DNA from: Balneicella halophila
GTDB lineage: Bacteria; Bacteroidota; Bacteroidia; Bacteroidales; Balneicellaceae
DNA length: 64,000 nucleotides
NCBI RefSeq assembly: GCF_003096835.1
Contig: NZ_QENZ01000004.1
Location: 62,001 to 126,000, forward strand
Reading direction: 5' to 3'
Under the pieces are notes generated by a model. It made no database searches, had not been told where the DNA came from, and worked only from the letters and a program-made list of their open reading frames with translations. Every line of letters starts with the position of its first letter. The first letter of the stretch is position 1. The position numbers and the translations under genes are program-made. Of this stretch, positions 4,058 to 28,453 are shown piece after piece.

Positions 4058-4727
4058 ATTGCAATTGCATTTTAAATTGAGATGCTATGTGACTGAGTAG
4101 TTTTTGTTTTACTAGCTTAATATCAATATCTTTACCTAGTTCTTGAGCTAATGATGTAACACCTTTATCTTTAAATCCACAAGGGTTAATATAATCAAAA
4201 TATTTCAAATCTGTGTTTATATTGAATGCAAAGCCGTGCATGGTAATATGTCTGCTTACTTTCACACCCATCGCACAAATTTTCCTTTCCATTGGGGTGC
4301 CAACATCCAACCACACTCCTGTAGCATCGTTCAATCTTTCTGCTTTGATATCATAATTTTGCAATGTTTGTATGATGCTTTCTTCCAATCTGTGTATGTA
4401 TTCCTTCACACCGAATTTCCAAATCGCTAAGTTGATAATAGGATAACCAACTATTTGACCTGGTCCATGGTACGTGATATCTCCGCCTCTGTCAACCTTA
4501 TAGAAAGTTGCATCCTTAGCAGAAAGTTGGATATGATTCATTAACAGATTGTGCTCATCACCGCTTTTCCCTAAAGTATAAACATGTGGGTGCTCACAAA
4601 AAACAAGATAATTGCATGCTTTATCTTGTCTCTTTGCTTGGAGTACTTTATCGTAATACTGCTGTTGTTTTTTCCAACCTTCTTCGTAAGGGATTAGTCC
4701 CCAGTCTCTAAAGTGCACGTTTGGCAT
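4050..4727 (-). CDS. lipB: Octanoyltransferase LipB (lipoate biosynthesis)
   Basis: 225 residues. It carries the LipB signature RGGDITYHGPGQ (residues 80-91), the catalytic cysteine in NPCG (Cys183) and the partner lysine in CAMGVKVSRHIT (Lys156). It moves an octanoyl group from acyl carrier protein to lipoyl domains of 2-oxoacid dehydrogenase complexes or the glycine cleavage H protein. LipA then inserts sulfur, and its gene lies immediately upstream, overlapping by 20 bases. The pair implies de novo lipoylation. Confidence 0.97.
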   Translation of the reverse strand: MPNVHFRDWGLIPYEEGWKKQQQYYDKVLQAKRQDKACNYLVFCEHPHVYTLGKSGDEHNLLMNHIQLSAKDATFYKVDRGGDITYHGPGQIVGYPIINLAIWKFGVKEYIHRLEESIIQTLQNYDIKAERLNDATGVWLDVGTPMERKICAMGVKVSRHITMHGFAFNINTDLKYFDYINPCGFKDKGVTSLAQELGKDIDIKLVKQKLLSHIASQFKMQLQYE

Positions 4728-5607
4728 AGCTCAACTTTTTTTTGTTTACGTGTCTTTCTGCATGATAAGAAGAACGTACCAACGGACCGCTTTCTACAAT
4801 TGGAATTCCTAAGGATTGACCTATTTCTTTGTACTCGTCGAACTGTTCAGGAGTCACGTACTCAGATACGGGCAAGTGCTTTATTGTTGGCTGTAGGTAT
4901 TGACCAATAGTCAGCACTTCTACGTGAGCATCAACCAAGTCTTTCATCGTTTCAATGACTTCATCTCTTGTTTCGCCTAAGCCAAGCATAATCCCTGATT
5001 TGGCAACACATTCAGATTGAGAAATATGACGAAGCACCTTAAGACTAGTGTCATATTGAGCACGACTGCGTACCTGTCTCGTCAATCGACGAACAGTCTC
5101 CATGTTGTGCGATATGATTTCTGGTTTCTCTGCAATAACAACATCAACCAATTCCGTTCTCCCGTCAAAGTCTGGAATCAATACTTCTAATGTTGTATGA
5201 GGATTTGTTCGTTTAATTTCTTTGATAGTATCTGCCCAGAACGAGGCACCACCATCTTTTAAATCATCTCTGTCCACCGAAGTGACAACGGCATGTTTTA
5301 ATTGCATCAACTGAATGGAACGTGCTAGTCTTTTTGCTTCTTTAGCATCAGGCGGTAAGGGCCTCCCGGTAGGGACGTTACAAAATTTACAAGCTCTGGT
5401 ACAAATATTACCTAATATCATAAAGGTAGCTGTTCCATTTCCCCAGCATTCACCGGCATTTGGGCATTTCCCGCTGGAGCAAATTGTATGAAGCTTATGT
5501 TTGGTAACAATCTTATTTATATGTGCATAATCATCTCCTTTGGGGAGTTGTATTTTAAGCCAATCAGGCTTTTTGCGTGTGTTCATTTTTATTTTGTTAT
5601 TTATCAT
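4708..5607 (-). CDS. lipA: Lipoyl synthase LipA (radical SAM)
   Basis: 299 residues. The auxiliary cluster motif CSSGKCPNAGEC (Cys43, 48, 54) precedes the radical-SAM motif CTRACKFC (Cys69, 73, 76), and the C-terminus has the RSSYHAE serine motif that ligates the auxiliary cluster. The enzyme inserts two sulfur atoms into protein-bound octanoyl groups. A second in-frame ATG at 5586 gives MNTRKKPDW, more like the usual N-terminus, so the first 7 residues are uncertain. It heads the operon lipA-lipB-recJ-acyltransferase. A near-match to the -7 element (TATCTTTA, minus strand, 5666-5673) is the best promoter candidate I see. Confidence 0.97.
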   Translation of the reverse strand: MINNKIKMNTRKKPDWLKIQLPKGDDYAHINKIVTKHKLHTICSSGKCPNAGECWGNGTATFMILGNICTRACKFCNVPTGRPLPPDAKEAKRLARSIQLMQLKHAVVTSVDRDDLKDGGASFWADTIKEIKRTNPHTTLEVLIPDFDGRTELVDVVIAEKPEIISHNMETVRRLTRQVRSRAQYDTSLKVLRHISQSECVAKSGIMLGLGETRDEVIETMKDLVDAHVEVLTIGQYLQPTIKHLPVSEYVTPEQFDEYKEIGQSLGIPIVESGPLVRSSYHAERHVNKKKLSYAKRAL

Positions 5608-11049: not shown

Positions 11050-12249
11050 ATGGAGCAATATGATATTATTGTTATTGGAGCAGGAATTGTAGGTTTAGCA
11101 ACAGCACTTCGTTTAAAAGAAAAGAATGAAGACTTAAACGTTCTGATTATTGAGAAAGAGAATGAAGTAGCCACTCACCAAACGGGGCATAACAGTGGTG
11201 TTATCCATTCCGGCATTTACTACAAGCCAGGAAGTTTAAAGGCAAAGAATTGTAAAGAAGGATACTCCCAGTTGATTGATTTTTGTGAAACTCATTCAAT
11301 TCCTTATGAGCTTTGTGGGAAAGTGATTGTAGCATCGGATGCTAGTGAAATTCCATCTTTAGAAAATATTTATAACAGAGGTTTAGAAAACGGACTAGAA
11401 GGACTTAAAGTTATTGATAGCGAAGAATTAAGTGAAATAGAACCTCACTGTAGCGGAGTAAAAGCCATTTTGGTACCACAAACAGGCATAATTGACTACA
11501 AAGTTGTTTGCGAAAAGTATCTAGAGCTTATTAAAGCTAAAGGAGGAAGTATTAAGTTTTCCGAAAAAGTTAATGGGGCTAAGGACGAAACTGACGGAAC
11601 GGTAGTCATTACGAATAAAGGGAGCTATAAAGCGAGAATATTAGTAAATTGTGCAGGACTTTATTCTGATAAGGTTGCAGAGATGGCAATGGGGAAATTA
11701 GGAATCAAAATATTGCCTTTCCGTGGAGAATATTATCATATCATACCCAATAAAAAACATTTGGTGAAGAATCTAATCTATCCGGTGCCTAATCCAAAGT
11801 TTCCATTTCTGGGCGTGCATTTTACTCGTATGATTGATGGTGGAGTTGAGGCAGGACCCAATGCCGTATTAGCTTATGCAAGAGAAGGCTATGACAATAA
11901 GACAATTAATTTTGAAGAATTTTTTGAAACATTAGGTTTCTCTGGGTTTCAAAAGGTGGCTAGGAAATATTGGAAAATGGGTGCATATGAGCTTTATCGT
12001 TCCTATTCTAAGCAGGCTTTCACTGAGGCATTGCAAAAATTAATTCCTGAAATTCAAAAAAAGGATTTGATAAAGGGAAATGCAGGAGTGCGTGCGCAAG
12101 CTTGTGATAAAGACGGCAATCTTATTGATGATTTTCTTATCTTTGAAGATACCCATACAGTAAATGTGTGTAATGCGCCATCACCTGCCGCAACATCATC
12201 ATTGAGTATTGGAAAGACGATTGCAGAAAGGGTTTTAGATAAATTTTAA
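11050..12249 (+). CDS. lhgO: L-2-hydroxyglutarate oxidase (FAD-dependent)
   Basis: 399 residues with an N-terminal FAD-binding motif GAGIVGLATALRL and the LhgO hallmark HQTGHNSGVIHSGIYY (about residues 40-56). LRSYSKQAF-like and C-terminal PSPAATSSLSIG segments also fit. Family members oxidise L-2-hydroxyglutarate, a side product of malate dehydrogenase, to 2-oxoglutarate, passing electrons to the membrane. Such repair enzymes have no known role in polysaccharides, yet wzz starts 8 bases after this stop, so the gene probably shares a transcript with the polysaccharide cluster. Confidence 0.88.
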   Translation: MEQYDIIVIGAGIVGLATALRLKEKNEDLNVLIIEKENEVATHQTGHNSGVIHSGIYYKPGSLKAKNCKEGYSQLIDFCETHSIPYELCGKVIVASDASEIPSLENIYNRGLENGLEGLKVIDSEELSEIEPHCSGVKAILVPQTGIIDYKVVCEKYLELIKAKGGSIKFSEKVNGAKDETDGTVVITNKGSYKARILVNCAGLYSDKVAEMAMGKLGIKILPFRGEYYHIIPNKKHLVKNLIYPVPNPKFPFLGVHFTRMIDGGVEAGPNAVLAYAREGYDNKTINFEEFFETLGFSGFQKVARKYWKMGAYELYRSYSKQAFTEALQKLIPEIQKKDLIKGNAGVRAQACDKDGNLIDDFLIFEDTHTVNVCNAPSPAATSSLSIGKTIAERVLDKF

Positions 12250-13377: not shown

Positions 13378-14553
13378 ATGAATAAGAATATAACAATTGT
13401 AGGCGTAGGTTATGTTGGATTATCAAATGGTCTGTTGTTAGCACAGCATAATAATGTTATTGCATTGGATGTTGATGGTAGTAGAGTCAAAAGGTTAAAT
13501 CAACGAGTTTCTCCTATTGCTCACGATACAGAAATACAAGAGTATATTAAAAAGCCAGAGTTAAACTTTGTGGCTACATTAGATAAAGAAAAAGCTTATA
13601 AGAATGCAGATTTTGTGATTATTTCGACACCAACAGATTATGATATTAAAACAAATTATTTTAATACGAGTTCGGTGGAGTCTGTAATAAAAGATATTAA
13701 GGACTATAATCCTAACTGCGTTATGGTTATAAAATCTACAGTTCCTGTAGGTTTTACTCAAAAAATAAAGAAAAAATTAGGAATTGATAATGTTGTTTTT
13801 TCTCCTGAATTTTTGCGTGAAGGTAAAGCGTTGTATGATAATTTATACCCTTCTAGAATTATTGTTGGGGAGCAAAGTGACCGGGCGAAAGAATTTGCTA
13901 ATTTACTTGTGGAAGGTGCAATAAAAGAAAACATTGATGTATTATTGACTGATTCCACAGAAGCAGAAGCTATAAAACTATTTTCAAATACATACTTGGC
14001 AATGCGAGTGGCATACTTTAACGAATTGGATTCATATGCAATGAATTTTGGGTTAAATACGAAACAAATCATTGAGGGGGTTTGCTTAGACCCCAGAATA
14101 GGTAATTATTATAATAATCCTTCTTTTGGGTACGGGGGATATTGTTTACCTAAAGATACTAAACAATTAAGAGCGAATTTTGAAAGTGTACCTAATAATT
14201 TAATTAATGCAATTGTAGATGCAAATAGAACGAGAAAGGATGTGATTGCTAATGATATTTTAGATAAAAAGCCTATTACAGTTGGTGTTTATCGTTTGGT
14301 GATGAAATCAGGTTCAGATAATTTTCGTTCATCTTCTATTCAAGGTATTATGAAGCGAATCAAAGCAAAAGGGATAGAAGTTGTTGTCTATGAACCAGAG
14401 CTAAAAGATGAAAGTTTTTTTAATTCAAAAAATATACGAAATGTAGAAGACTTTAAGCAATTGTGTGATGTTATTATTACCAATCGTAATACAGATGAGT
14501 TAGCCGATGTACAAGAGAAAATTTACACAAGAGATGTGTTTGGAGACAATTAG
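13378..14553 (+). CDS. ugd: UDP-glucose 6-dehydrogenase, short (E. coli Ugd-like) type
   Basis: 391 residues, close to the about 388 of enterobacterial Ugd. The NAD motif is [10 protein letters not shown] (residues 9-18), followed by [28 protein letters not shown], and the catalytic Cys256 in [10 protein letters not shown]. It would oxidise UDP-glucose to UDP-glucuronate in two NAD-dependent steps. A related sugar (UDP-ManNAc or GDP-mannose) is possible, but the SPEFLREG and YPSRIIVGE features favour UDP-glucose. A second, clearly different Ugd of 442 residues ends the cluster at 29470-30798, so one of the two may be redundant or have another substrate. Confidence 0.85.
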
Positions 14554-14555
14554 TT

Positions 14556-15830
14556 GTGATAAAAAATTTAGGTTGGATATTCCTTGAAAAGGTCGGGGTT
14601 GTATTGTTTTCTTTTATCAGTTCAGTATTGGTTGCAAGAAATTTTTCGGTTGCAGAATTTGGAGCCTATTCTTTTGCGTTGTCTCTATTAGCTGTTTTTA
14701 ATGTGTTTAGTCACATGGGACTCCCCGCTGTATCTGTAAGAGAGTTGTCTGTGTCAAAAAACAAAAACTACTCTCTTAGTTTGATTTTTAGTTTGAAGAT
14801 TATAGGCTGTGTTTTAGGTTTTGTCTTTTTTAATTTGTATGCCTATATGTTTATAAAAGAGGGAGTTGTTAGGTTGATGTGTTTTATTTTATCTCTATCT
14901 ATTTTGTTTAAAGTATCAGAGGTTATTCAGTATTATTTTGAATCATTGAATGAAAATAGAATTAATGCACAGGTTAAATTAACATCTTCATTAATAGGAT
15001 CTTCATCTCGTATACTTCTTGCATTATCTAGCCTTCGTTTTTATTTTGTCAGTTTTTCATACGTGTTGCTTAACTTATCAATGTTTATATTGTTTTTTTC
15101 TCGCTTTATTCCAAAAGTTGAAATAAAGAAGATTCTTAAATTACCTACTTTTAGGGATTTAGTTAACCTTTTTAAAGATTGTTTTTTAGTTTTTGCAGGA
15201 ACTATTTTTGCTGTTTTATATTTGAAGATAGACCAAGTAATGTTAGAGAGTATGATTAATAAAGAAGCGGTTGGTATTTATGCTATATCTAGTAATTTAA
15301 CAGAATATTGGTATTTCTTTCCAGATGCTTTGTTGGTTGTTTTAATGCCAAAATTAGTAAAAACTTTTGCTGTAAATAAAAAGAATTACTATTCTTACAT
15401 GAGAGGAATAACTACATTTCTGTTTTGGAGTGCATTTATTGTTGCTATTTGTGTTAATATTTTTTCAAGAGATTTGATAGAGTTTATTTATGGTAAGAAA
15501 TATATATTTTCATCAGAGATTCTCAATATTCATATATGGGCTGCTTTATTTATATTTATGAGAGTTCCTTTTAGTAAACATATTGTGATTTTGAAAATGA
15601 CAAAATTTTCTCTAATAACACAAGGAGTAGGATGTATAGTTAATGTTTTGTTAAATTATTTTTTAATTGGTAGTATGGGAGTAAAAGGTGCTGCTGTAGC
15701 TACCTTTTTTTCTTACTTTATAGCAGGTTTTATGTTGTTAGTTATATTTAAAGAAACAAGATCTTTCTTTTATGTAATGTTGAGTTCATATAATTTTAGG
15801 AATTTATATTATTTTAAAAAAATATTGTAA
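14556..15830 (+). CDS. Wzx-type polysaccharide flippase (MATE/MOP superfamily)
   Basis: 424 residues and about 12 hydrophobic helices. It opens NLGWIFLEKVGVVLFSFISS and has the ARNFSVAEFGAYSFALSL segment typical of polysaccharide-biosynthesis flippases. It should flip undecaprenyl-linked repeat units across the inner membrane. The start is a GTG at 14556, two bases after the preceding stop; no ATG fits the conserved N-terminus. The stop overlaps the next ATG (TAATG). The gene is strikingly AT-rich compared with rmlA or glmS. Confidence 0.88.
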   Translation: MIKNLGWIFLEKVGVVLFSFISSVLVARNFSVAEFGAYSFALSLLAVFNVFSHMGLPAVSVRELSVSKNKNYSLSLIFSLKIIGCVLGFVFFNLYAYMFIKEGVVRLMCFILSLSILFKVSEVIQYYFESLNENRINAQVKLTSSLIGSSSRILLALSSLRFYFVSFSYVLLNLSMFILFFSRFIPKVEIKKILKLPTFRDLVNLFKDCFLVFAGTIFAVLYLKIDQVMLESMINKEAVGIYAISSNLTEYWYFFPDALLVVLMPKLVKTFAVNKKNYYSYMRGITTFLFWSAFIVAICVNIFSRDLIEFIYGKKYIFSSEILNIHIWAALFIFMRVPFSKHIVILKMTKFSLITQGVGCIVNVLLNYFLIGSMGVKGAAVATFFSYFIAGFMLLVIFKETRSFFYVMLSSYNFRNLYYFKKIL

Positions 15831-16870
15831 TGTTTATATACAAATATATTAGTAGAGATACAAAAGAGTTTGTGAAAAGAAAACTTAATAGCTTGAGTAT
15901 ATTTAAGTATAGAATAGTTTCTTTTTCTCCTATATTAGCAAAGGTGTACTACTTTTTTAATAGTAAAATAAGTTCAGAATTATATAATGTAACTAATGGA
16001 ATTTACTTAAATAAAGTATCAAATTTTAATCAAGGGCGTTTTAGACGAAATATTCATCGTATAGAAAAAGGTTTGATAATGCGACCACGAAGGGAGACTT
16101 TTGCGTTAGGCTATATGAATACTGTTTTAGATGATTATAAGTATATTGTTAAAAAGTTTAATAATGAAGAGGTAAAGTGGTCAACTTCTGTTTTAGATGA
16201 ATTTTTTAGAGTGTGTTCCGGAAAAGAAATAGATAAATTAAAATCTAAGTATCTTACCGTAAGGTTAAAAGATGCCACAGAAGATATGTGGGTAAATTGT
16301 AAGAATCCTTATCTTTACAAAGATAAAGATATTTCTGTTAGTCCACAAGAACTGTTAGAATTATGTCAAGTGCGCTCTTCGGTTCGGTGGTATATAAATA
16401 AAGTAGTAGAGAAACAGGATATAGAAGATGCGATAGAAGTTGCTAAGACAGCACCAAGTGCTTGTAATAGACAGCCTTTTCGCTTTATAAGTACTAATAA
16501 TAGAGACTTAATTTTACGAGTAGGAGGGTTAGCGCCAGGTACTAGTGGTTTTTTGGAAAATATCCCGAATTTAATTTGTGTTGTAGGTGATTTAAAAAAT
16601 TATGAGTTTGAAAAAGATAGACATATAATTTACATTGATTCTTCTTTAGCTGTAATGCAGATGTTATTATTTTTTCAAACTAAAGGTATATCTTCTTGTA
16701 TCTTAAATTGGCCTGAGGAATATAAAAGAGATAAGGCGATTTCTAAGCTTTTAAATTTGGAAAAAAGTGAAAGAGTTGTACTTTTAGTTGCTTTTGGTTA
16801 TGCTGATAAGACTGGAAGTATTCCATTTTCTGCTAAAAAAGGAAATAACGAAATGTTAGAAATAATATGA
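15830..16870 (+). CDS. Nitroreductase-family protein of polysaccharide clusters
   Basis: 346 residues. The C-terminal half (about 180-340) is a nitroreductase/FMN fold: VRSSVRWY, then TAPSACNRQPFRF, GGLAPGTSGF, and a VLLVAFGYAD ending. The N-terminal 180 residues contain NIHRIEKGLIMRPRRETFA, which I have seen only in nitroreductase-like proteins of exopolysaccharide loci. It is translationally coupled on both sides: TAATG with the flippase and ATGA with the pyruvyl transferase gene. The close pairing with a pyruvyl transferase suggests a step in sugar modification, but the substrate and even the redox reaction are unknown. It is unlikely to be a detoxifying nitroreductase. Confidence 0.75.
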   Translation: MFIYKYISRDTKEFVKRKLNSLSIFKYRIVSFSPILAKVYYFFNSKISSELYNVTNGIYLNKVSNFNQGRFRRNIHRIEKGLIMRPRRETFALGYMNTVLDDYKYIVKKFNNEEVKWSTSVLDEFFRVCSGKEIDKLKSKYLTVRLKDATEDMWVNCKNPYLYKDKDISVSPQELLELCQVRSSVRWYINKVVEKQDIEDAIEVAKTAPSACNRQPFRFISTNNRDLILRVGGLAPGTSGFLENIPNLICVVGDLKNYEFEKDRHIIYIDSSLAVMQMLLFFQTKGISSCILNWPEEYKRDKAISKLLNLEKSERVVLLVAFGYADKTGSIPFSAKKGNNEMLEII

Positions 16871-17976
16871 TAGTAGAAATAAAAAATGCAGGCTTTGAGA
16901 ATAAAGGAGCAGAATTAATGCTTAGGACTATTATGCAAGTAATGGGAGATGAGCATACTTATGTTATGGAGTTTAATTTAAACTCTGCTCCTTATGAAAA
17001 AAGGGCTAGGCTTGGAATTTATCAGAAATCAGGAATAGTGAAGTTCGGTGTCCAATTTGATTGGTTTTTAGGATTATTGCCCCAAAAACTATTGAATATG
17101 TTGGGAATTATTCTAAATAAGGATATAGATGTTGTTTTTGATGCTTCTGGATTTGCTTATGGAACTCCATGGAATGATGACAATATAAAGAAGATATTAA
17201 CTGTTTCGAATAATACTAAGAGATATGATCAGAAACTAATATTTTTACCTCAAGCTTTTGGTAAGTTTGAAGGACGTCAGAGTCGCGAAAAAATGAAAAA
17301 GGTTTTTGAAAATGCTACTTTGATTTTTGCGAGAGATGAAATATCTTTAAAAAATATAGAGAATATAGCTCCTAAGGATAAGCTTTATTTGGCAAAAGAT
17401 TTTACTAATCTGCTAAAGGTAGAAAAGAATATAGAGGAAGTCAAGAATGCCGTAGTGGTTATACCTAATTGTAGAATGTTGGATAAGTCGGATGGAGATT
17501 TATACTTAAAATTGCTAGATAGGGTTATAGAGATTTTATCCGAAAAAGAGGAAAAAATTATACTCTTAAATCATGAAGGGAAAGGAGACTTGGCTTTATG
17601 TGAACAGTTATCAAAAAAATGGGGCAACTTAAAGATTATAAGAGGAGGAGATACTTTGTTTATAAAAAGCGCGATAGGAAGTAGTAAGGGGGTTATTTCA
17701 AGTCGTTTTCATGGTATTGTTAGTGGCTTATCACAAGGAGTGGTAACCATAGGAACTAGTTGGTCTCATAAGTATAAAGCCTTGTATCATGATTATAATT
17801 TTAATGATGGTTTGATTGATGACTTGGATATCAATGATGATGTTTTAATTGAAAAGTTGAGTTTTATACTTGATAATGAAAAAAGAAAAAAGATAGTTGG
17901 TAAACTTACTATGAAATCTAATGAATTGAATGACGAGAGTATGTCAATTTGGGAATTAATAAAAAGTATGTTATAA
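16867..17976 (+). CDS. Polysaccharide pyruvyl transferase family protein
   Basis: 369 residues without signal peptide. N-terminal IKNAGFENKGAELMLRTIM and C-terminal SSRFHGIVSGLSQGV are the family landmarks. CsaB/WcaK-type enzymes add ketal-linked pyruvate from phosphoenolpyruvate to a sugar of the repeat unit, giving the polymer negative charge. The gene overlaps the nitroreductase-like gene by 4 bases and is followed with no gap by a glycosyltransferase, so it is firmly part of the polysaccharide operon. Confidence 0.85.
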   Translation: MIVEIKNAGFENKGAELMLRTIMQVMGDEHTYVMEFNLNSAPYEKRARLGIYQKSGIVKFGVQFDWFLGLLPQKLLNMLGIILNKDIDVVFDASGFAYGTPWNDDNIKKILTVSNNTKRYDQKLIFLPQAFGKFEGRQSREKMKKVFENATLIFARDEISLKNIENIAPKDKLYLAKDFTNLLKVEKNIEEVKNAVVVIPNCRMLDKSDGDLYLKLLDRVIEILSEKEEKIILLNHEGKGDLALCEQLSKKWGNLKIIRGGDTLFIKSAIGSSKGVISSRFHGIVSGLSQGVVTIGTSWSHKYKALYHDYNFNDGLIDDLDINDDVLIEKLSFILDNEKRKKIVGKLTMKSNELNDESMSIWELIKSML

Positions 17977-18834
17977 ATGGATCAGCCTAAAGTAACAGTC
18001 TATATTCCAACCTATAATCGTAAAGGATTACTTGAAAGAGCAATTAATTCTGTCATTGGTCAAGACTATTCTAATATTGAGATTATTGTTGTTGATGATA
18101 ATTCTACAGATGGAACAGAGAGTTTTTTAGAAGAGAAATCAAAGGAAGTGGCTAACTTAAAATTTTTTGTAAAAAAACAAAATTCAGGCGCTTGTGCATC
18201 TAGAAATATAGCAATAGAAAATGCTACCGGTGATTTTATTACAGGATTAGATGATGATGATTATTTTTTACCCAATAGGATAAGTGATTTTGTTCATTTT
18301 TGGACTGAAAAAGAAAAAGAAACAGTCTTTTTATATAGTTCATATACTCTAAAAATAGGGGAATCTCATTTTACGAAAAGAGGTTTACGAAAAAAAAAGA
18401 TGGATTTTGATAGCCTTCTAAAGGTAAATGATGTTGGTAGTCAGGTGTTTATTGAAACTGAGGTGCTGAGAGAGAGAGGTTTTGATGAAAGATTACCAAT
18501 GTGGCAAGATTTTAAATGTTGGTTAGATATTTTGTCCGGGGGAGGTATAGCACAAGGAATCAATAACTATAGTTATGTTGTAGATATATCCCATGCACAC
18601 GAAAGAATATCTATGAAAAGGAAAGATAAATTGCTCATTGCTGAAGATATAATTAAAAGTAGTTTCCAGCTAGACAAGTATCAACGTTTATATTTGGAAA
18701 ATCATAAATGTAATTATGGAGTAGGATATAAAATGAATTTTAAAGAAGTTTTGTCCGTTTTGTTTAGGTTAGATTTTGATTTTTTCTTTAAATTTCGTTT
18801 TATAAAACAATATATAAAGACATTGAATAATTAG
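17977..18834 (+). CDS. Family 2 glycosyltransferase
   Basis: 285 residues. The GT-A nucleotide-binding half is clear: VTVYIPTYNRKGLLERAINS, then EIIVVDDNSTDGT, NSGACASRNIAI and the metal-binding DDDD in GLDDDDYF. It would transfer one sugar from a nucleotide donor onto the lipid-linked repeat unit on the cytoplasmic face. Donor and acceptor cannot be predicted. The ATG directly follows the stop of the pyruvyl transferase. Confidence 0.88.
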   Translation: MDQPKVTVYIPTYNRKGLLERAINSVIGQDYSNIEIIVVDDNSTDGTESFLEEKSKEVANLKFFVKKQNSGACASRNIAIENATGDFITGLDDDDYFLPNRISDFVHFWTEKEKETVFLYSSYTLKIGESHFTKRGLRKKKMDFDSLLKVNDVGSQVFIETEVLRERGFDERLPMWQDFKCWLDILSGGGIAQGINNYSYVVDISHAHERISMKRKDKLLIAEDIIKSSFQLDKYQRLYLENHKCNYGVGYKMNFKEVLSVLFRLDFDFFFKFRFIKQYIKTLNN

Positions 18835-25118: not shown

Positions 25119-25988
25119 ATGAAAGGAATTGTTCTTGCTGGTGGATCCGGCACACGTTTGTATCCCTTAACCGCAGGAGTCTCAAAACAATTATTGCCTA
25201 TTTATGATAAACCGATGATTTATTATCCGATTTCGGTACTCATGATGGCAGGTATTAGAGAAATATTAATTATTTCGACTTCACAAGATTTACCTCTTTT
25301 TCAAAGAATGTTAGGAACAGGAACTCAGTTAGGACTTGAATTTAGCTATGCAGAACAACCTAAACCAGAGGGGATAGCACAAGCATTTATTATTGGAGAA
25401 GATTTTATAGGAAGTGATGATGTGTGTTTAGTTTTGGGTGATAATATTTTCTATGGTTATGGACTTACAGAATTATTGCTTTCGGCAGAGGAAACAGTGA
25501 AGGAAGAAAGCAAAGGAGTAATATTTGGCTATAATGTAAGTAATCCCTCGCGCTACGGTGTCGCTGGTTTTGATGAGCACGGCAACGTAACCTCAATAGA
25601 AGAAAAGCCAAAGAATCCAAAATCGAACTTTGCTGTTGTAGGTTTGTATTTTTATCCTAATAATGTGGTAGAGATTGCAAAAAAGATAAAACCCTCCTCA
25701 CGTGGCGAGTTGGAAATCACGACCGTAAATCAAGAATTTTTGCATAATGAGCAATTAAAGGTAGAGTTAATGGGAAGAGGATTTGCATGGTTAGATACAG
25801 GGACACATGAGTCTTTATTGGAAGCAGGACAGTTTGTTGAGACCATTGAAAAGCGTACAGGTTTAAAGATAGGTTGCATTGAGGAAATAGCTTATAAAAA
25901 AGATTATATTGATGTTAAGAAACTTAAGGAATTAGCAAAACCTATCTCACATAGCGATTATGGTCGTTATCTTTTATCGATAATTTAA
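25119..25988 (+). CDS. rmlA: Glucose-1-phosphate thymidylyltransferase
   Basis: 289 residues of normal length. It starts with the nucleotidyltransferase signature [16 protein letters not shown], then [24 protein letters not shown] and [10 protein letters not shown]. It makes dTDP-glucose, the first step of dTDP-L-rhamnose synthesis. The complete set rmlA-C-D-B follows in order with short gaps, so the polysaccharide or another envelope glycan very likely contains rhamnose or another dTDP-6-deoxysugar. Confidence 0.97.
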
Positions 25989-26021
25989 TATTATTTCTTC
26001 TAAATTGACTATTTTTACTCT

Positions 26022-26564
26022 ATGAAAATAGTAAACACAAGTATTGAAGGCGTTAAAATATTTATCCCCACTGTTTTTACAGATAATAGAGGATATTTTG
26101 CAGAGACTTTCCGTGAAGAAATTATTCACAAAGAAACAAATACTACTTTTATTCAAGAAAATGAATCTTTCTCCAAAAAAGGAGTACTCAGGGGTTTGCA
26201 TTATCAGCAGGAACCTTATGCTCAAGCGAAACTGGTACGTTGTGTTTTAGGAGAGGTCTATGATGTAGCTGTTGATTTACGAAAAAGTTCTCTGACTTTT
26301 GGAAAATATATTGCCGAGAAGTTATCAGGAGAGAATAAAAAACAATTATTTATCCCAAGAGGATTTGCTCATGGATTCGTTGTGTTAAGTGATTGGGCAA
26401 TTGTGGTATATAAAGTTGATAATTATTACCATAAAGAATCTGAAGTAACGATTTGCTACAATGATGATAATCTAAATATCGATTGGGGTTTGTCCGATGA
26501 GGATTTCATATTATCAGAAAAGGATAAGAATGGTATTTCTATTGATAAAGTTCCCTTGTTTTAA
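26022..26564 (+). CDS. rmlC: dTDP-4-dehydrorhamnose 3,5-epimerase
   Basis: 180 residues with the cupin landmarks FTDNRGYFAETF, GVLRGLHYQQEP (catalytic His), GEVYDVAVDLRK and FIPRGFAHGFVVLSD. It epimerises C3 and C5 of dTDP-4-keto-6-deoxyglucose. Third enzyme of the dTDP-rhamnose pathway, 33 bases after rmlA. Confidence 0.97.
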   Translation: MKIVNTSIEGVKIFIPTVFTDNRGYFAETFREEIIHKETNTTFIQENESFSKKGVLRGLHYQQEPYAQAKLVRCVLGEVYDVAVDLRKSSLTFGKYIAEKLSGENKKQLFIPRGFAHGFVVLSDWAIVVYKVDNYYHKESEVTICYNDDNLNIDWGLSDEDFILSEKDKNGISIDKVPLF

Positions 26565-26576
26565 TCAAATGCAGTA

Positions 26577-27434
26577 ATGAAGAAAGTTGTTGTTACGGGA
26601 GCTGATGGACAATTAGGAAATAGTCTTCAGAAACTTTCAGAGGATTATAAGAATCTAAATTTTCGGTTTCTAAATAGAAAGACTCTTGACATTACAAGTA
26701 AAGCTAATGTCGATAGTTATATAGCTGGGCAGTTGCCAGATCTTATTGTGAATACTGCTGCTTATACGCAAGTAGATATAGCTGAGAAGGAAAAGGCCGA
26801 TGCCTACGATGTCAATGTAATTGGCGTAGAGAATTTGCTTAGCGTTTGCGAGAAATACTCAATACGGTTTATTCAGCTAAGTACAGACTATGTTTTTGAC
26901 GGGAAGGAGAAAACACCGAAAAAAGAAGATGACAAATGCACTCCTGTGAATTTTTATGGAAAGACAAAGTATGAAGCAGAGCAACTTGTTGTTCAGTCTA
27001 AAGTCTCGAGTGTTATCTTGCGAACATCATGGCTGTTTTCTGAATTTGGAAATAATTTTGTGAAGACGATTTTGCGCTTAGTCTTAGAGAAAGACCAACT
27101 GAAGGTCGTTGATGACCAATGGGGAAGTCCAACCTACACGGATGATTTAGCAAGATGTATTTTATGGTTTCTTGAAAACTTTCCTCAAAAAAATGAAATT
27201 TATCATTTTGCGAATCAAGGGTGCTGTAGTTGGTATGAATTTGCTCAAAGGATAGTAAATTTGAGCAATTCGCATTGTGAGTTACAGCCTATTCCAACAA
27301 CAGAATATCCCACTTTGGCGAAGCGACCTAAATATTCAGTGCTTGATACTCATAAAATTCAAGAAACAAGAGGAATTATTATCAGGAATTGGCAGGACTC
27401 TTTGGAAGAATGTATGAAAAATATGAACAAATGA
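26577..27434 (+). CDS. rmlD: dTDP-4-dehydrorhamnose reductase
   Basis: 285 residues: GADGQLGNSL at the N-terminus binds NADPH. NTAAYTQVDIAEKE, STDYVFDG and the YGKTKYEAE Tyr-Lys pair identify RmlD, which completes dTDP-L-rhamnose. The stop overlaps the rmlB start as ATGA. Confidence 0.97.
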   Translation: MKKVVVTGADGQLGNSLQKLSEDYKNLNFRFLNRKTLDITSKANVDSYIAGQLPDLIVNTAAYTQVDIAEKEKADAYDVNVIGVENLLSVCEKYSIRFIQLSTDYVFDGKEKTPKKEDDKCTPVNFYGKTKYEAEQLVVQSKVSSVILRTSWLFSEFGNNFVKTILRLVLEKDQLKVVDDQWGSPTYTDDLARCILWFLENFPQKNEIYHFANQGCCSWYEFAQRIVNLSNSHCELQPIPTTEYPTLAKRPKYSVLDTHKIQETRGIIIRNWQDSLEECMKNMNK

Positions 27435-28453
27435 AAGCAATTTTAGTAACAGGAGGTGCCGGATTTATAGGGAGTAATTTTATTCCTTATTTTCTTCAAA
27501 AATATCCGAATTACCATATTGTAAATTTAGATAAACTGACTTATGCAGGAGACTTGAAAAACCTTGCAGAAGTAGAAAACAACGCTAATTATACCTTCAT
27601 ACAAGGAGATATTTGCAACAGAGAATTAGTACTTCGAATTTTTACAGAATTTGATATACGTGGTGTAATCCACTTTGCAGCAGAATCTCATGTTGATAAT
27701 TCTATAGAGGGGCCAGAAGTATTTATTCAAACAAATATCAATGGAACGTTTACTTTGCTTGATGTTGCTAAAAACCATTGGATGTTAAAACCCTTTGTAT
27801 TTAAAGAAGGTTACGAAACTTGCAGATTTCATCATATTTCTACTGATGAAGTCTATGGAAGTTTAGGAGATGATGGCTTGTTCACAGAAACGACACCTTA
27901 TGCACCTAATTCTCCGTACAGTGCAGCTAAAGCGTCGTCAGATTTTTTGGTAAGAGCCTACTTTCATACGTATGGAATGAACGTAACCACTTCAAATTGT
28001 TCTAATAATTACGGGCCTAAACAGCACCAAGAAAAGCTCATCCCTGTAATTATTCGAAAAGCGATAGAGGGAGAACCCATCCCTATCTACGGCAACGGTC
28101 AAAATATTAGAGATTGGTTGTATGTTTTAGATCATTGCAAAGGAATAGATCTCGTCTTTCATAAAGGAAAATCTGGCGAAACCTATAATATTGGAGGCAA
28201 GAATGAGCGCACGAACTTGTCCATAGTAAAATACATTTGCCAGCTCCTTGATGAGAAATATCCGAAAGAGAACGGAGACTCTTATGCACAGCAAATTACG
28301 TTTGTAGAAGACAGAGCAGGACACGATTGGCGTTACGCTATTGATGCTACAAAAATTGAAGAAGAATTAGGCTGGAAGGCAGAAGAGAATTTTGAAACAG
28401 GAATAGAAAAAACACTTCATTGGTATTTGAAAAAGTATGTTGTGAAACAGTAG
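27431..28453 (+). CDS. rmlB: dTDP-glucose 4,6-dehydratase
   Basis: 340 residues when started at the ATG overlapping the rmlD stop (MKAILVTGGAGFIGSNF); the open frame extends 42 bases further upstream inside rmlD, which I do not accept. HHISTDEVYGSLG and SPYSAAKASSDFLVRAY hold the catalytic Thr-Asp-Glu and Tyr-Lys. It makes dTDP-4-keto-6-deoxyglucose from dTDP-glucose. Confidence 0.97.
   Translation: MKAILVTGGAGFIGSNFIPYFLQKYPNYHIVNLDKLTYAGDLKNLAEVENNANYTFIQGDICNRELVLRIFTEFDIRGVIHFAAESHVDNSIEGPEVFIQTNINGTFTLLDVAKNHWMLKPFVFKEGYETCRFHHISTDEVYGSLGDDGLFTETTPYAPNSPYSAAKASSDFLVRAYFHTYGMNVTTSNCSNNYGPKQHQEKLIPVIIRKAIEGEPIPIYGNGQNIRDWLYVLDHCKGIDLVFHKGKSGETYNIGGKNERTNLSIVKYICQLLDEKYPKENGDSYAQQITFVEDRAGHDWRYAIDATKIEEELGWKAEENFETGIEKTLHWYLKKYVVKQ

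Follow-up and report, generated by a model that had tools for sequence, protein, structure and literature searches.

Within a 64,000-nucleotide stretch of the Balneicella halophila genome (contig NZ_QENZ01000004.1, positions 62,001 to 126,000; hereafter the window), two overlapping genes of a polysaccharide cluster encode a nitroreductase-like protein (NR; 15830..16870, + strand) and a pyruvyl transferase of the PF04230 family (PT; 16867..17976, + strand). NR and PT probably make an O-lactyl [O-(1-carboxyethyl)] ether on a sugar of the surface polysaccharide, PT being the proposed phosphoenolpyruvate (PEP)-dependent enolpyruvyl transferase and NR, predicted to be a nitroreductase-fold flavin mononucleotide (FMN) protein with a helical N-terminal half, being the proposed enolpyruvyl-ether reductase. 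The pairing of the two genes is conserved, their sub-clades match, the PEP and FMN sites are retained, and NR is swapped for FrhB-type (coenzyme F420 hydrogenase beta-subunit family) or MurB-type flavoproteins. Many bacteria, among them Klebsiella, Shigella and Proteus, bear lactyl ethers in their capsules and O antigens, where these groups define serotypes. The initial annotation had suggested for the pair a sugar modification or redox step not yet described; the co-occurrence of the genes and the FMN-site residues support this suggestion, and the evidence narrows it to an O-lactyl ether arising from a reduced enolpyruvyl ether.

NR is paired with PT in five phyla

Relatives of NR were gathered by an alignment-based genome scan, a scan with the single protein having returned none. 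The 90 NR loci compared come from Pseudomonadota, Bacteroidota, Bacillota, Cyanobacteriota and Planctomycetota, and a clear PT was found within the examined stretch in 87 of the 90. PT lies directly downstream of NR in about 63 of those loci, with a start/stop overlap in 29, which often has the ATGA form found in the window, and in 39 of the 90 loci the gene just before NR encodes a flippase. The 90 loci were mostly picked by pattern and include near-copies, and therefore an even draw of Enterobacterales genomes was made. In this unbiased sample, the NR family was present in 22 of 395 genomes, and a PT was present in the same cluster in 22/22: 18 PTs lie immediately downstream on the same strand, two just upstream, and two about 6 kb away on the opposite strand. 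As a baseline, a PF04230 gene is found near only about 6 of the roughly 150 flippase-family matches listed for 61 Bacteroidota genomes. These results indicate that the NR-PT pairing is not due to chance; co-occurrence beyond chance, which the initial annotation had proposed as a check, is near absolute.

Three NR loci have no PT within the examined stretch. Two of them (L066 and L069) were ruled out as genomes without a PT, as the only PT of each genome was located 15–18 kb downstream of NR, and the third (L143) is a short contig. The apparent lack of a PT in six other loci (L097, L116, L122, L130, L132 and L137) was an artefact of the pruning of open reading frames (ORFs). UDP-glucose dehydrogenase was rejected as a general partner of NR, being present in 16/90 loci.

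The two families also match in their phylogeny. In the fetched loci, clade-1 NRs are found with clade-1 PTs in 14/14 cases and clade-2 NRs with clade-2 PTs in 5/5. A tree of 98 PTs groups the NR-linked ones together, with 5 label changes versus 28 in shuffled labels, and the NR-less PTs from the same genomes fall mostly outside the main NR-linked cluster. The sole NR-less row in that cluster (L190) is situated at a contig edge, and a small group of clade-2 PTs contains both NR-linked and NR-less rows.

The HRIEKGL motif in the extra N-terminal region of NR had been associated only with polysaccharide loci in the initial annotation, which holds for most members, save for rare ones in a type II secretion system (T2SS)-like cluster or beside an ATP-grasp gene. 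In the former setting, seen in two Pseudoalteromonas (L066:9980-11017 and L069:9992-11029), the HRIEKGL protein is encoded between secretin-like and pseudopilin/GspE-like genes, which recalls nfnB in the T2SS-like cluster for the vesicle cargo P49 in Shewanella vesiculosa HM13 (PMC6971210). In the latter, on a plasmid of Ruegeria sp. B32 (L147:8001-9131 and 4303-5433), an HxxEKG protein gene is present as two copies in inverted orientation next to genes for a PylC-like ATP-grasp protein and a HAD protein; no PT lies nearby, and the family has another partner here. Coupling to a PF04230 gene is also seen for a short relative of 248 residues that lacks the HxxEKG motif (L301:2901-3644, genome G020).

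Other flavoproteins occupy the place of NR beside PT

Clade-2 PTs that lack NR often adjoin another flavoprotein, as do two in one genome (G079), where FrhB-type proteins come next. Among 50 PT stretches from Bacteroidales, a few of which overlap, the adjacent gene encodes an FrhB-type protein in 17, NR in 7 and a MurB-like protein in 2 (representing one locus), and two kinds of flavoprotein were never found together. In one Bacteroidales genome (G1210; L298:1279-3909), the FrhB-type flavoprotein is fused to a PF04230 domain in a single ORF of 876 residues.

The MurB-like partners are paralogues. The known reaction of MurB is the reduction of an enolpyruvyl ether, which yields a lactyl ether. 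Two cyanobacteria, Leptolyngbya PCC 7375 and one other, have a MurB paralogue adjoining PT, with the canonical MurB encoded elsewhere in each genome, and the Bacteroidales MurB-like gene beside PT scores 125.7 bits against PRK13905, for which the cut-off is 259. The catalytic serine motif of MurB, GSxF, is kept in all three MurB-like genes beside PTs. Thus, NR, FrhB-type and MurB-type flavoproteins interchange beside PT. A clade-2 PT in Stutzerimonas xanthomarina (genome G462; L208:5548-8455) adjoins a thiamine-diphosphate enzyme, whose best match is MenD, below cut-off; this pair may add a different acid.

PT retains the PEP-binding positions of CsaB

PT, which is the sole PF04230 gene in the window's genome, matches PF04230 at 90.2 bits (curated cut-off, 25.3) and falls well below the cut-off of the CsaB equivalog TIGR03609 (70.6 versus 213.1 bits). 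The PEP-binding residues of CsaB are R148, R306, H308 and K328, as assigned by mutation or docking (PMC10435577). The equivalent residues of PT, as set by motif position and not from a solved structure, are Arg156 (codon at 17332..17334, + strand), R280 and H282 within the motif SRFHG (17701..17715, + strand), and Lys302 (17770..17772, + strand), and each is present in 88/88 NR-linked PTs. The four PEP residues of CsaB are conserved, and therefore PT is expected to use PEP.

Probable link of lactylated capsules and O antigens to PT with a flavoprotein gene

Among 79 Klebsiella K-antigens, O-lactyl groups are found only in K22, K37 (both GlcpA-Olac) and K66 (Glcp-Olac) (PMC6856556, Table 1). 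According to PMC4616057, the only capsule types without pyruvate that have PT genes are K8, K22, K37 and K66, and the 79 Klebsiella loci contain, when taken together, two nitroreductase genes and one coenzyme F420 hydrogenase gene. The K22 and K37 loci differ only by a single frameshift, and 4-O-[(S)-1-carboxyethyl]-D-glucuronic acid is present in K22 (PMC3857182). The counts agree with a putative assignment of two nitroreductases to K22 and K37 and of one FrhB-type protein to K66.

In E. coli O124/O164, the cluster has the order wzx, FrhB, PT, GT2, GT32. O124 had been considered as a nitroreductase carrier, which was wrong, FrhB being encoded there instead. We take the O antigen of Shigella dysenteriae 3 to be that of E. 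coli O124. A 4-O-[(R)-1-carboxyethyl]-glucose is present in a Shigella dysenteriae O antigen (PMC10609480). On the E. coli plasmid p30COLEC-2, the order is that of the window (wzx, NR, PT, glycosyltransferase gene), with NR in the slot held by FrhB in O124. The proposed lactyl-ether module fits K22, K37 and K66 by counts and O124 by cluster content.

In DNA searches the HRIEKGL gene was absent from E. coli chromosomes, the family being found there on plasmids only. These small plasmids (L146, NZ_CP070932.1; L228) hold pieces of polysaccharide clusters riddled with insertion sequences, with NR-PT and a truncated FrhB-PT, and such pieces occur in 3/5426 E. coli genomes, on plasmids only. The O124/O164 PT of TUM18780 (L227:9148-10283) is annotated as two pieces and may be broken there.

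A different function for the pair would be that PT forms an ordinary pyruvate ketal while NR has a separate task in the pathway, for example the reduction of a keto-sugar nucleotide or of some other precursor, the two genes being linked solely through their shared glycan. The PF04230 enzymes of known function do form ketals, and the cluster in the window contains other sugar-modifying enzymes. However, the partner of NR in five phyla is specifically PT rather than a sugar-nucleotide enzyme, in matched sub-clades; FrhB- and MurB-type proteins substitute for NR beside PT; and the Klebsiella types concerned have PT without pyruvate. Taken together, these observations make separate roles for the two proteins unlikely. 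Alternatively, PT may close the cyclic ketal first, and NR may then open it reductively to the lactyl ether. Such a route would employ the same genes and yield the same end product as reduction of an enolpyruvyl ether, but enolpyruvyl ethers are the known substrates of MurB-type partners, and no flavoenzyme known to us opens an unactivated ketal; we consider this route very unlikely.

NR retains a predicted FMN site and has a helical N-terminal half

The C-terminal half of NR is a PF00881 nitroreductase domain (69.6 bits; curated cut-off, 23.5) that begins near residue 174. The initial annotation had described an extra N-terminal region of 180 residues; the region is indeed there, and its length is nearer 170 residues. 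In an AlphaFold2 model of NR (predicted local distance difference test score, 90.3; predicted template-modelling score, 0.86), residues 1–170 are wholly helical, and the HRIEKGL motif (residues 76–82; 16055..16075, + strand) is inside the helix formed by residues 68–83. In Foldseek comparisons with the PDB, FMN nitroreductases matched the C-terminal half alone, as was also the case for the sequence profile; the match to 8cqt had a probability of 1.00 and a template-modelling score of 0.83 by target length. No solved relative of the N-terminal half was detected by either approach. No characterised nitroreductase equivalog of NCBIfam, among which malonic semialdehyde reductase and F420 ligase were compared, exceeded its cut-off for NR (best, 20.2 versus 152 bits).

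In the alignment, two signatures of the nitroreductase FMN site were seen in NR: RSSVR (residues 182–186; 16373..16387, + strand), a motif shared with the FMN protein 8cqt, and PSACNRQPF (residues 209–217; 16454..16480, + strand). Among 61 NR sequences, R182 and R186 are invariant and S184 is nearly so, and P209 to N213 are invariant or nearly so, with A211, C212, N213 and R214 invariant; the same degree of conservation applies to the motifs RxSxR and PSxxNxQP. In the N-terminal half, R73, H76, R77, E79, K80 and G81 are invariant or nearly so in the 61 relatives, and H76, E79, K80 and G81 are invariant across both sub-clades, the motif in sub-clade 2 reading HSVEKGL, HVVEKGL, HIIEKGL and similar. 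The conserved residues suggest that NR keeps its predicted FMN site; loss of FMN-binding residues across the family, the finding that the initial annotation had named as speaking against its proposal, was not seen.

NR could also be a redox sensor or a protective partner that is non-catalytic for the glycan, a view that draws on there being no known substrate of NR and on its uncharacterised N-terminal half. Set against it are the FMN-site residues and the HxxEKG motif, which are invariant in distant bacteria, and the three unrelated types of flavoprotein that fill the same slot, so that a non-catalytic role is highly improbable. An oxidase or desaturase activity giving an acid substituent that is unsaturated or oxidised in another way, like that of some nitroreductase-fold enzymes on cyclodipeptides, is extremely improbable: oxidising members of the fold are among the matches (9exv and the albonoursin synthase 8uc3), but the lactyl group, the substituent actually present in K22, K37 and K66, is a reduced enolpyruvyl group, and MurB, which can replace NR, is a reductase.

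Proposed mechanism and comparison with known systems

For the proposed formation of the O-lactyl ether by PT and NR, we infer each chemical step and the order of the steps as follows. PT would bind PEP and transfer its enolpyruvyl group to a sugar hydroxyl (sugar-OH + PEP -> sugar-O-C(=CH2)COOH + Pi). The acceptor would be a hydroxyl of the repeat unit, probably still on the cytoplasmic undecaprenyl-diphosphate carrier, a lipid-linked substrate being suggested by the acceptor used in the CsaB assay (PMC10435577), and the acceptor sugar would be glucuronic acid or rhamnose. On the route to a ketal, a neighbouring hydroxyl would add to the enolpyruvyl group; here, reduction would forestall the ring closure. 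The FMN of NR, reduced by NAD(P)H as the likely electron source, would give a hydride to the enol ether, yielding sugar-O-CH(CH3)COOH. The flippase encoded just upstream would then export the lactylated unit.

The closest parallel to this scheme is the MurA/MurB pair, in which the enolpyruvyl group of PEP is likewise attached to a hydroxyl of a sugar before a flavoprotein reduces it, giving a lactyl ether; in a few genomes, a MurB paralogue stands beside PT in the place of NR. The proteins themselves differ: MurA belongs to the EPSP-synthase family, whereas PT belongs to PF04230 and NR is a nitroreductase-fold FMN protein that is not MurB by fold or by sequence, the likeness to MurB being functional only. 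MurA/MurB act on UDP-GlcNAc, whereas NR-PT would work during the assembly of a polysaccharide, with a lipid-linked glycan as the probable substrate. It is likely that a known kind of chemistry, similar to that of MurA/MurB, is carried out here by members of neither family.

PT shares its family and the same four PEP-binding positions with CsaB and other ketal pyruvyltransferases of PF04230, but lies on a separate, NR-tied branch of the tree and would give an ether after reduction instead of a ketal. NR has the fold and the FMN-site motifs of the nitroreductase superfamily (8cqt, BT_1316; NfsB; iodotyrosine deiodinase; BluB), from which it differs by the approximately 170 extra helical residues that bear HxxEKG. 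E. coli O124/O164 shares the order of wzx, flavoprotein, PT and glycosyltransferase genes with the window and is associated with an O-lactyl sugar, although its flavoprotein belongs to the coenzyme F420 hydrogenase beta-subunit family and its PT is on another branch. Klebsiella K22/K37 and K66 combine a PT and no pyruvate with an O-lactyl capsule, their putative flavoprotein genes being those suggested by the counts in PMC4616057.

Several observations weigh against the formation of a lactyl ether by NR and PT. The Klebsiella link consists of gene counts and structure tables. K8 is described differently by the two sources, being listed without pyruvate in PMC4616057 and with Galp-pyr in PMC6856556. 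About half of the Bacteroidales PT stretches have no flavoprotein neighbour of these kinds, in some cases because of a short flank, and the MurB paralogues beside PT are few, at three loci. The NRs of L066, L069 and Ruegeria (L147) are without an adjacent PT.

The polysaccharide cluster of the window

The window's genome is 2.09 Mb in size and belongs to Bacteroidota, and the relatives retrieved point to the order Bacteroidales. By profile matches, a Wzx/Wzy-type polysaccharide cluster spans 11–29 kb of the window. It comprises the genes for Wzz, UDP-glucose dehydrogenase, the flippase, NR and PT, four glycosyltransferase or EpsG-type genes, those for a sugar epimerase, an initiating sugar transferase and a 4,6-dehydratase, and rmlACDB. 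The Wzx-type flippase (14556..15830, + strand; PF01943, 62.3 bits) ends with a TAA stop at 15828-15830, whose last A is used by the ATG of NR (TAATG), and the start of PT lies within the stop of NR (ATGA). Both overlaps had been reported in the initial annotation, and the ORFs were found exactly at the coordinates it gave. A family-2 glycosyltransferase gene (17977..18834, + strand; PF00535) abuts PT.

The UDP-glucose 6-dehydrogenase (13378..14553, + strand; PRK15057, 671.7 bits) would supply glucuronic acid, a possible lactyl acceptor by analogy with K22/K37, and the dTDP-L-rhamnose genes rmlA, rmlC, rmlD and rmlB (25119..28453, + strand) make rhamnose another possible acceptor. The cluster starts with the Wzz-like gene, and the gene directly before it encodes an FAD enzyme resembling L-2-hydroxyglutarate oxidase (11050-12249; PRK11728, 559 bits).

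Implications

We found no paper that names the enzymes for these lactyl ethers in a search that most subscription papers lay outside. Nor did we find one that joins a nitroreductase or F420 hydrogenase, PT and lactyl ethers, the closest being PMC4616057, in which the link is not made; given this limited coverage of the literature, an earlier proposal of the link is possible.

We consider it an even chance that a large part of PF04230 consists of enolpyruvyl transferases, each with one of three interchangeable, unrelated reductases (HxxEKG nitroreductase, FrhB-type or MurB-type) that decides on the O-lactyl ether. The fold of the reductase may also set the configuration, which would be (S) with the nitroreductase (K22) and (R) with FrhB (O124).

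If the proposed function of NR and PT is correct, a gene for a 'pyruvyl transferase' together with one for a 'nitroreductase' or 'coenzyme F420 hydrogenase' would predict a specific chemical group from sequence, and many automatic predictions of 'pyruvylated' polysaccharides would be wrong. It would also explain the origin of a capsule decoration whose enzymes were found nowhere described in the searched literature, and would mean that the chemistry of MurA/MurB has been rebuilt in nature at least twice from other folds.

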